A stretch of DNA of 64,000 nucleotides from Cytophagales bacterium. Lineage in GTDB: Bacteria; Bacteroidota; Bacteroidia; Cytophagales; Flammeovirgaceae. Numbering within the stretch: position 1 is the stretch's first letter; every line of letters begins with the position of its first letter. Both the position numbers and the translations under genes were made by a program. The notes below the pieces were generated by a model. The model was given only the letters and a program-made list of their open reading frames with translations. It did not search any database and was not told the DNA's origin. Location: positions 62,001 through 126,000 of the forward strand of contig JANWWC010000006.1 in assembly GCA_025056215.1 (NCBI GenBank), given 5' to 3'. Shown in pieces: positions 34,328 to 36,297 of the stretch.

Positions 34328-34963
34328 ATGCTCGTCGCACAACAAACTGCTTATTATTTATTGGAAATTGGTGCAGTAAAACTTTCTCCTCTTCAGCCAT
34401 TTACATGGGCTTCTGGTTGGAAATCTCCTATTTATTGCGATAATCGTCTAACACTTTCCTATCCTCTGATTCGAACCTATATTAAAGAGCGATTAGCTTC
34501 TCTTATCAAAGCGCGTTTTCCGGAGGTAGAAGCCATTGCGGGAGTAGCCACTGCTGGAATCCCACAAGCTTCTTTAATCGCAGATTATTTGCAACTTCCG
34601 ATGCTGTATGTTCGTTCGAAGCCCAAAAACCATGGACTTGAAAACTTAGTAGAAGGTAAAATCACTCCCAGGCAGAAAGTAGTAGTAGTAGAAGATCTGA
34701 TTTCTACAGGAGGGAGTTCTCTAAATGCTGTGTTAGCTCTTCGAAGTGAAGGATTTGACGTTTTAGGATTGACCGCTATCTTTACTTATGGATTTTCTAA
34801 GGCACGAGAAGCATTTGATAAAGAAAGGCTCACTGTTTCTACTCTTACGGACTATAACGTGCTATTAGAAGTCGCACAAAAACAAGGCATTATCAATGAA
34901 ATACAACTCGCAATGTTGGAGGAGTGGCGCAAAAATCCTGAAATTTGGGGGAAGGAATCATGA
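34328..34963 (+). CDS. pyrE: Orotate phosphoribosyltransferase
   Basis: 211 residues. PyrE motifs include GAVKLSPLQPFTWASGWKSP and YCDNR near the N-terminus, GVATAGIPQA, YVRSKPKNHG and the PRPP-binding loop VVVVEDLISTGGSSLNAV (about 119-136). The enzyme converts orotate and PRPP to orotidine monophosphate in pyrimidine synthesis. Its stop overlaps the ATG of the next gene (ATGA). Placing pyrE at the head of a methylase-ligase-cinA group is a local arrangement rather than a pyrimidine operon. Confidence 0.95.
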   Translation: MLVAQQTAYYLLEIGAVKLSPLQPFTWASGWKSPIYCDNRLTLSYPLIRTYIKERLASLIKARFPEVEAIAGVATAGIPQASLIADYLQLPMLYVRSKPKNHGLENLVEGKITPRQKVVVVEDLISTGGSSLNAVLALRSEGFDVLGLTAIFTYGFSKAREAFDKERLTVSTLTDYNVLLEVAQKQGIINEIQLAMLEEWRKNPEIWGKES

Positions 34964-36297
34964 TAAAAAATAAGTTCAATCGTCTTTCATCTAAGGAATG
35001 GCTCCTTTTTCAAAAGTCTTGGACGATATGGGAAAGCGATGAAAAATTATATGCAGATAACATTTGCTTTTTTACAAAGCCTGAAGAAGAAAAAAAATCA
35101 GTCGTAGCTTTTTGGGGTCAAGAAGAATCTTACTCACTTGCGCAAGTAGTTGCCCAACACCATGATTGTTGGATTACAAAAGAATGTTCTTCTCAAGTTC
35201 AATTCGCAATTGCCGATTGCCGGTTTATTAGAACATTAGAAGAATACGTTGCTCATAAATCTGCTTTAAAAGCGTGGCTCGAAAATCTTTTTGAGTTACT
35301 AGAGCATAGGCGATTTGTTTGTATCTTGATTTCTAATGTTTTTTCTGGGGTTCAGTACTTTCCTGCCGCTTGGGATTTAGCACTTTCAGTATCAGCGCAT
35401 TTTTCTTTAAAAGATGAAAAAATTATTTGTTTTCATTCCGACAATTTACCTGATACTTGTTATGCGCTATATTTCAGGAAAGATGAAGAAAGCGCTCAAA
35501 AAGGAATTAGCGAAGAATTACTCTTTCAACCGTCTATTTTGTTTCCGTTTCCTTCTACGCCGCATTGGTTTATTTTAAAACCTGCTCCTCGCAAAAAAAA
35601 TGAAATTTTACATCCTGCTAAGTATCCTGAAGAATTAGTTATGAAGTTTGTCGAAAGCTTTACGCAGAAAGAAGACATCGTATTCGACCCTATGAGCGGA
35701 ACAGGAAGTACGCAAGTTGGAGCTATTCGTTTGAGAAGAAATGCATATGGAACAGAACTAAATGAGTTTTTTGCAAAAATTGCTAACGAAAGAATTCAGG
35801 CAGAAATTAAAAATGCTTCTTTTCAAGCAAAGGTATTAGTAAAAGATGCTCGCAAAATACAATCTGTCGATTTCCCTATGGCGCATTATATGCTTACTTC
35901 TCCGCCGTATTGGGATATGTTAAATATGAAAGGAGCTGAAAATCAGCAAAAAAGAAAACAAAAAGGACTTCCACTTAATTATTCTGATGCAGCAGAAGAC
36001 TTAGGAAATATTTCAGAATATGAAAAATTTCTAACTGAGCTTGTTGCGATCTATAAGAATTTGCTTCCGATGCTTCAGCCTATGGCGCGCTTTACTGTGG
36101 TAGTGAAAAACATTAAGAAAAAAGGGAAAAATTATCCTTTTGCATGGGATTTGGCTAAGTTACTTTCTCCTTATTTTCACCTACAGCCCGAAATGTTTTG
36201 GTTGCAAGACGATTTAAGTATTGCGCCGTATGGTTATGGAAATACGTGGGTAAGCAATACTTTTCATCAATATTGTTTGCATTTTGTTAAGAAATGA
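34960..36297 (+). CDS. Putative DNA (N4-cytosine/N6-adenine) methylase with duplicated half-domain
   Basis: 445 residues from the ATG at 34960, coupled to pyrE by ATGA overlap and preceded by GGGGGAAGGA. The C-terminal half has the amino-methyltransferase motifs: a preceding [12 protein letters not shown] (motif X-like), DPMSGTGST (motif I, SAM binding), an acidic YGTELNEFF, and the catalytic TSPPYWDML (motif IV). The N-terminal ~200 residues resemble the post-catalytic part of the same protein ([18 protein letters not shown] versus [17 protein letters not shown]) but lack SPPY. No restriction endonuclease is adjacent, so it is a solitary methylase. An RNA target cannot be excluded. Confidence 0.75.

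Follow-up and report, generated by a model that had tools for sequence, protein, structure and literature searches.

Why does a DNA methyltransferase (MTase) gene placed between two housekeeping genes encode a protein whose N-terminal half looks like a decayed copy of its catalytic half, and does this protein act alone? The gene lies in a window of 64,000 nucleotides (the whole stretch of DNA analyzed here) from a Cytophagales bacterium. Its ORF occupies exactly positions 34960-36297 (+ strand) and encodes 445 aa. The start shares an ATGA overlap with a pyrE-like gene (34328-34963, +, PF00156), whose stop ends at 34963, and the stop shares another with the ORF of ligA (36294-38342, +, PF01653 and other ligase domains), for which a second start is possible at 36306. 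PF01555 (N6_N4_Mtase) is the only Pfam family above its own cut-off in the protein (70.4 bits, cut-off 26.7), with its best stretch at residues 206-277; from the ORF, this match and full-length alignment, the gene was annotated as a predicted fusion of a pseudo-MTase with an N4/N6 amino-MTase. A second PF01555 match in the same genome (C15:46391-47297, − strand) is split across two frames, one of which contains a TAA.

The first-pass annotation of this DNA had proposed that the N-terminal part resembles a decayed copy of the catalytic part, and profile comparison shows that the resemblance is real. With hhalign, residues 1-205 (N) matched residues 286-445 with a probability of 98.3 and an E value of 2.3e-14, residues 86-174 pairing with 344-444; against residues 206-445 the score was 92.2, compared with a maximum of 24.5 in 100 column shuffles and 13.6 for the reversed profile. 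The similarity of residues 1-85 to 206-286 is marginal in direct profile comparison (18.2 versus a maximum of 16.5 in 100 shuffles). Some details of the earlier description need correction. The echoed segment, placed about 270 residues upstream of its counterpart, is 258 residues away when measured between the PxAWDLA segments (P135 and P393). The helices preceding it do pair, but the pairing proposed for them is 7 residues out of register with the hhalign alignment. Likewise, a duplicated unit exists but extends further than had been described, since both structure and alignment with single-domain relatives identify residues 27-67 as the decayed counterpart of motifs X and I.

Structure prediction points the same way, the two halves being alike in predicted fold. 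In the AlphaFold model of the full protein (27 sequences; pLDDT 87, pTM 0.88), one order of elements occurs twice. The first copy consists of an X-like helix (residues 27-38), β1 (47-52), αA (55-67), β2 (70-73), β4 (80-86), αD (93-113), β5 (114-124), a hairpin, αE (136-144) and β7/β6 (149-157 and 166-173), the helix and strand between β2 and β4 being absent. The second has helix 224-234, strand 240-243, helix 250-257, strand 261-265, helix 269-283, strands 290-293 and 308-313, helix 354-371, strand 372-382, a hairpin, helix 394-402 and strands 406-415 and 436-444. Because nearly all structural matches listed for the full model fall on the C domain, the N domain was also modeled separately from N sequences only (pLDDT 92, pTM 0.89). 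Among the 50 VIA-align matches listed for this model (Z 9.3-10.8, mostly over model residues 22-179), 41 are titled MTases, and the remaining nine belong to ribosome-assembly particles (5), fatty-acid synthases (2) and uncharacterized proteins (2). One chain, 3tma, matches both halves, residues 24-175 of N at its positions 166-335 and residues 215-445 of C at 160-335. Matches from Foldseek, run with the full model, include three tandem MTases (PMT, RsmC and RlmKL), aligned over 437-558 columns with query TM-scores of only 0.25-0.31 and rmsd values of about 20-23 Å; the succession of two MTase folds is thus alike, and the mutual placement of the domains is not. These proteins resemble the fused MTase in carrying tandem MTase folds in one chain, and they differ in being RNA or small-molecule enzymes by their titles. 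In RsmC, the first (N-terminal) MTase-like domain has lost SAM binding and is chaperone-like. By these models, the N domain is a whole decayed class-I MTase domain, from the X helix to the last strand (residues 27-173, positions 35038-35478, +), an assignment that also draws on hhalign and the residue columns described below.

The same layout recurs in other bacteria. A pattern-based scan of genome contigs gathered 28 loci, whose record titles place them in Bacteroidetes, KSB1, Calditrichaeota and Marinimicrobia or among unassigned bacteria, with 41-51% identity to the window protein in the best segment, except for the fragment L031 (65%). Leaving aside L028, whose start is cut, and L031, the remaining 26 align end to end with the window protein in the same two-domain arrangement, so the N-terminal half is carried by all 26. 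Across these 27 sequences, the catalytic domain (residues 202-445, positions 35563-36294, +, from Pfam, AlphaFold and structure comparison) retains its motifs. The region of motif X, HPAKYPE (218-224, positions 35611-35631), has invariant H218, P219, A220, K221, P223 and E224. The two motifs named by the first-pass annotation are where it had put them, in the C-terminal part. Motif I, DPMSGTGST (243-251, positions 35686-35712), predicted to bind SAM and covered by the Pfam alignment, has invariant D243, P244, M245, G247 and T248, with G249 in 90% or more; motif IV, TSPPYWD (313-319, positions 35896-35916), predicted to be catalytic, lies in an invariant stretch (313-327) that includes S314-Y317. 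In N domains, by comparison, the H, P, A and K of HPAK are found in none of the 27, the D, P and G of motif I in 0.04 each (one of 27), and the T, S, P, P and Y of motif IV in none, in agreement with the earlier observation that the N-terminal copy lacks SPPY. Two loops of the full model, 321-326 and 420-433, are of low confidence and rich in invariant residues; they are likely the DNA-contacting parts. Two features are peculiar to the N domain. Its opening segment, NxxNxLxxKEWxxFxKSW (residues 1-21, positions 34960-35022, +), recognized by alignment, the N profile and column partition, has N4, N7, K12, F17, K19 and S20 invariant in the 27 sequences and is absent from the catalytic copy. In KDEK (residues 151-154, positions 35410-35421, +; column partition and alignment), K151, D152 and K154 have frequencies of 0.89-1.00 among N domains and 0.00-0.11 among C domains, and E153 occurs in both.

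Single-domain relatives indicate how these features may have been divided. In 395 Bacteroidota genomes, the full profile matched only in the window's own genome, and the weaker matches to the catalytic half were generic MTases. At 22 other Bacteroidota loci (L034-L055), frames of 279-328 aa match the catalytic half alone (E 2e-77 to 5e-69), and viral contigs hold three further single-domain MTases (L063, L064 and L065). The motif order of the single-domain proteins is X-I-IV-VIII, with no extra half. The 22 bacterial proteins start with a segment like NKLNDLTGKEWIKFTKSWF, followed by HPAKFPE, and the N-domain profile matches their start and later half; the shared segment, NxLxxLTxKEWxxFxKSW, is kept by the N domain only. 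An xseA-like ORF, confirmed by Pfam in three cases, directly follows all 22 genes. These 22 loci, where no nuclease was found, hold candidate vertically kept solitary methylases. A pseudo-domain acting in trans was sought in ORFs upstream of the single-domain genes, yielding only weak matches to the N profile (E at least 0.33); of two such ORFs checked, one is a TonB-dependent receptor and the other has no Pfam match. To partition the motifs, we took 90 columns conserved in at least 90% of 20 bacterial single-domain proteins (L045 and L051 were dropped without special reason) and in at least two of the three viral ones. Forty are kept by C only (including H218 P219 A220 K221, D243 P244 G247 and T313-W318), 13 by N only (N4, N7, L9, K12, E13, W14, F17, K19, F37, K151, D152, K154 and R173), 13 by both and eight by neither; the remaining 16 are intermediate. 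With intermediates excluded, N retains columns that C has lost more often than chance predicts (Fisher p 0.006), but this excess depends on the N-terminal segment and loses significance once that segment is removed (p 0.27). Set beside the single-domain relatives, the fused protein reads as a segment plus a dead MTase, followed by an MTase without the segment.

The history of the two domains appears to be shared. In a tree, the N, C and single-domain groups each form one clade with support of 100, and the branch leading to the N clade is 2.5 changes per column long. Distances among N domains correlate with those among C domains over 351 pairs (Mantel r 0.76, with none of 2000 permutations as high) and are about 2.8 times as large, the N domain thus evolving faster. 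In the least saturated pair, dN/dS was 0.44/2.07 for N and 0.15/1.15 for C, which, with synonymous changes nearly saturated, is only a hint of constraint. Because of the single clades and the correlated distances, a single fusion event probably took place, with the domains together since. The parents may have been one gene or two near relatives.

Two other accounts of the origin of this chain have to be weighed. A head-to-tail fusion of two distinct single-domain MTases as the source of N and C is possible, if somewhat doubtful. The tree places viral L064 beside N (94/75) and L063 beside C (98/81), as two parents would predict; however, L064 sits next to the very long N branch, the bootstrap had not stabilized, and a single clade of N plus C is not rejected (AU p 0.39). 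The first-pass annotation had offered two readings, a pseudo-half serving DNA recognition, which the present results would allow, and an intermediate of circular permutation, in which a leftover IV-VIII half precedes an X-I-IV-VIII unit, giving the order decayed IV, X, I, IV. Its IV-VIII part is indeed the best-aligned stretch of N, and TTHA0409 (2zie), which like other PF01555 MTases has the same catalytic domain family as the fused MTase, aligns with the catalytic part as two pieces whose order is permuted, the N domain having no counterpart in that match. We nevertheless regard this account as hardly credible. In the models, N also contains the X helix, β1, αA and β2 in order, so that counterparts of X and I are present there as well; as a complete predicted MTase fold in the order X-I-IV-VIII, the same as in the catalytic copy, N is not a IV-VIII remnant. 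The single-domain relatives, with their X-I-IV-VIII order, also speak against permutation.

Whether the enzyme has a partner was approached through its gene neighborhoods. Beside or near the MTase in 15 of the 28 relatives' loci is a gene for a protein family of about 290 aa, downstream and on the opposite strand; 13 copies are immediate neighbors, that of L018 is 1.5 kb away, and that of L026 is a remnant. Other neighbors mostly differ from locus to locus, as for horizontally moving genes, apart from small shared groups, e.g., five Marinimicrobia loci. The genes surrounding the MTase-nuclease pair stand in the same order in L009 and L030; one of them, upstream, overlaps the MTase start and has no Pfam match (L030 copy). 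The L026 remnant (5360-5650, − strand, about 100 aa) adjoins an intact fused MTase, as if a system were losing its nuclease. An alignment of the other 14 linked copies, which leaves out this remnant and unlinked copies, shows invariant G54 K55 E58, D85, D88 F89 and D97 x K99. The pattern E...D...(D/E)xK is that of PD-(D/E)XK nucleases. Here, the acidic-acidic-lysine pattern is formed by E58, D88, D97 and K99 and is also found in the copy of the window's genome; a strict DxxDF...WD(I/L)KN occurs in 18 of 26 nuclease frames, the other eight being variants, partial or divergent copies. Comparison of the family with Pfam, NCBIfam and PDB sequences gave chance-level matches only, and PADLOC gave one isolated match, in one of 14 members (RTasYodC, E 1.4e-5). 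Judged by residue pattern and linkage, the partner is a putative nuclease of the PD-(D/E)XK type. A second, divergent relative at G466:C110:14758-15435 (+) has apparently lost the catalytic motifs.

The window's genome contains one intact copy of this gene (G000:C16:30159-30965, L123:1492-2298, +; 268 aa, E 2e-88), which retains GKVAE, DRRDF and EWDIK and itself has no Pfam match. It begins one base after an aldehyde dehydrogenase gene stops, and on its 3′ side lies a gene with a weak match to FtsQ-type POTRA (E 0.0059, under the cut-off). The MTase gene is at C14:96960-98297, on a contig of 175,429 bases; the two are therefore not neighbors. A search of the window for a nuclease remnant returned none (best E 1). 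The earlier statement that no restriction gene is adjacent is therefore true within the window, the probable cognate gene sitting elsewhere in the genome; it is nonetheless misleading, and the solitary status that it implied is probably wrong. Among the relatives' genomes, 23 of 28 have the nuclease somewhere and five gave no hit. The two genes are on different contigs in eight of the 23. Contig ends could explain some of these eight; they fail to do so in the window's genome, G449, G451, G454 and G458, whose MTase genes keep a distance of 8 kb or more to either end of the contig (the G458 nuclease match being partial and divergent). This contrasts with the PabI family, in which nearly all R genes are reported to adjoin an M gene (PMC4615327).

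Co-occurrence was also followed in wider samples. Only one of the 395 Bacteroidota genomes has the nuclease, and it is the one with the fused MTase (Fisher p 0.0025). In 199 Marinimicrobia genomes, the fused MTase is present in seven and the nuclease in six, all within the seven (Fisher p 9e-11), a count in which four of the seven (G457, G467, G468 and G470) had come to light beforehand in the MTase scan, with three of these four having supplied members of the nuclease profile and the nuclease of G457 being a remnant; the new cases are G588 and G606, with both genes, and G667, with the MTase only. None of the 22 genomes that carry a single-domain MTase has the nuclease, provided that both Bacteroidota draws hold the same genomes, as their handles suggest. 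Depletion of palindromes was also tabulated, in search of a recognition sequence. In 800 kb of the window's genome (G000:C9:1-800000), GATC (772 seen, 2461 expected), CTAG (722, 2209), GGCC (238, 829) and CCGG (257, 607) are depleted, possibly a trace of several restriction systems, past or present; in G473, the strongest depletion over 800 kb is that of CATG, CTAG and CCGG. CTAG is common to both genomes. We claim no site, since CTAG is depleted near single-domain loci as well.

The explanation that we consider quite probable for the whole is that the protein is the modification enzyme of a type-II-like restriction-modification system, with a fused pseudo-MTase and an unlinked partner nuclease. 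It starts from what was computed, namely homology, predicted fold, motif loss, residue partition and joint occurrence with the nuclease family; that the two domains pack as a pseudo-dimer, that N reads DNA, and that the MTase and the nuclease are active is what we infer. A single-domain MTase would have fused once with its own copy or a near relative, and the ancestral parts would have been divided, the pseudo-domain having the N-terminal segment and KDEK and the catalytic domain motifs X, I and IV. The C domain (about 202-445) would be an active SAM-dependent amino-MTase that binds SAM, flips the base and methylates it. Given SPPY as motif IV, cytosine N4 is a more likely target than adenine N6. 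The N domain (1-200), presumably a second MTase copy that lost SAM binding and catalysis, would pack on the catalytic domain like the second subunit of a dimer, supplying the segment and KDEK in cis, and may help to bind or read DNA. Methylation would shield the host from the partner nuclease, encoded at a separate locus in the window's genome. The N domain is expected to be needed for activity, because the catalytic copy lacks the N-terminal segment that single-domain relatives keep, and we read N and C together as a single-chain pseudo-heterodimer. A stronger version, in which the dead copy of a duplicated and fused MTase became an obligate DNA-reading half that gives the segment and KDEK to the live copy, and restriction by a new nuclease family, unlinked and in another operon in this genome and several others, is coordinated with modification in trans, seems to us quite possible, and we hold it tentatively.

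Competing accounts of function concern the N domain and the partner in turn. The N domain might be only a structural or folding scaffold, chaperone-like, with the catalytic domain reading and methylating DNA alone. Its fast evolution would fit this, as would the Foldseek resemblance, low in TM-score, of the full-length chain to RsmC and RlmKL, both tandem MTases. We think it unlikely, in view of the invariant N residues common to single-domain MTases (N4, N7, K12, F17, K19, D152, E153 and K154) and of a catalytic copy that has no N-terminal segment of its own. Alternatively, the enzyme might be a solitary regulatory MTase of the CcrM/Dam kind in a pyrE-ligA operon, and the distant nuclease homolog unrelated, as the ATGA overlaps with housekeeping genes, the non-adjacent nuclease and the five of 28 genomes without a nuclease hit might suggest. 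This seems quite improbable, however: the window's genome has an intact nuclease copy, in the two wider samples the nuclease appears only where the fused MTase is present, and among 58 genomes around and including the window's own, only that genome has the fused MTase, unlike what a vertically kept regulator would show. One of the 58, G416, matches the catalytic half alone. A 945-aa frame of this genome (L122:236-3073, +) is, by eye, another fused double MTase with both motifs present: an MTase part with LDPPYN comes first, then one with the NNLTGKEW segment and TSPPYWD, and a masked stretch separates these from the C-terminal part.

Double MTases of the FokI type carry two active MTase domains of distinct classes and complementary motifs in one chain and belong to type II systems. 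MhoVII likewise has two MTase domains per chain in a type II system, and both parts are reported to be active, with complementary motifs and distinct classes (PMC12898733). Unlike these proteins, the fused MTase lacks SPPY in every N domain examined (27 of 27). Similar in make-up is METTL3-METTL14, in which a catalytic MTase domain is joined by a homologous degenerate, non-catalytic domain that aids substrate binding (PMC5023411), a live domain and a degenerate partner as in the fused MTase. It differs in consisting of two eukaryotic proteins that act on RNA adenine, with the motif order of the β class (PMC4490356); the fused MTase is one bacterial chain in X-I-IV-VIII order with a putative nuclease partner, and the likeness drawn here concerns the MTase fold. 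MTA1-MTA9, which makes DNA m6A in ciliates, is also alike in pairing a DNA MTase with an MTase-fold partner whose catalytic and SAM residues are unconserved, and differs in having separate subunits, the further partners p1 and p2 and a eukaryotic host (PMC9174199). In the type III enzyme EcoP15I, one Mod subunit of Mod2 reads the DNA and the other methylates it, a division that its authors suggest may hold for the whole β subfamily (PMC4490356). There, Mod is a homodimer with a helicase Res subunit, whereas in the fused MTase one domain is permanently decayed and fused. By analogy, the fused MTase would correspond, within one chain, to METTL3-METTL14 or to the Mod pair of EcoP15I. Among the open-license PubMed Central papers listed by our searches, none described the fused family or its partner.

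Reports on EcoP15I and METTL3-METTL14 already describe a division of labor between MTase subunits, and MTA1-MTA9 is composed in the same way. In the family described here, single-domain and fused, half-dead forms both exist in living bacteria, the single-domain form also in viral contigs. Together they form a natural series, before and after fusion, in which to ask what residues either half has to retain. Overall, the findings point to an apparently unnamed family of restriction nucleases, and to restriction and modification genes that are kept together though they are not neighbors.
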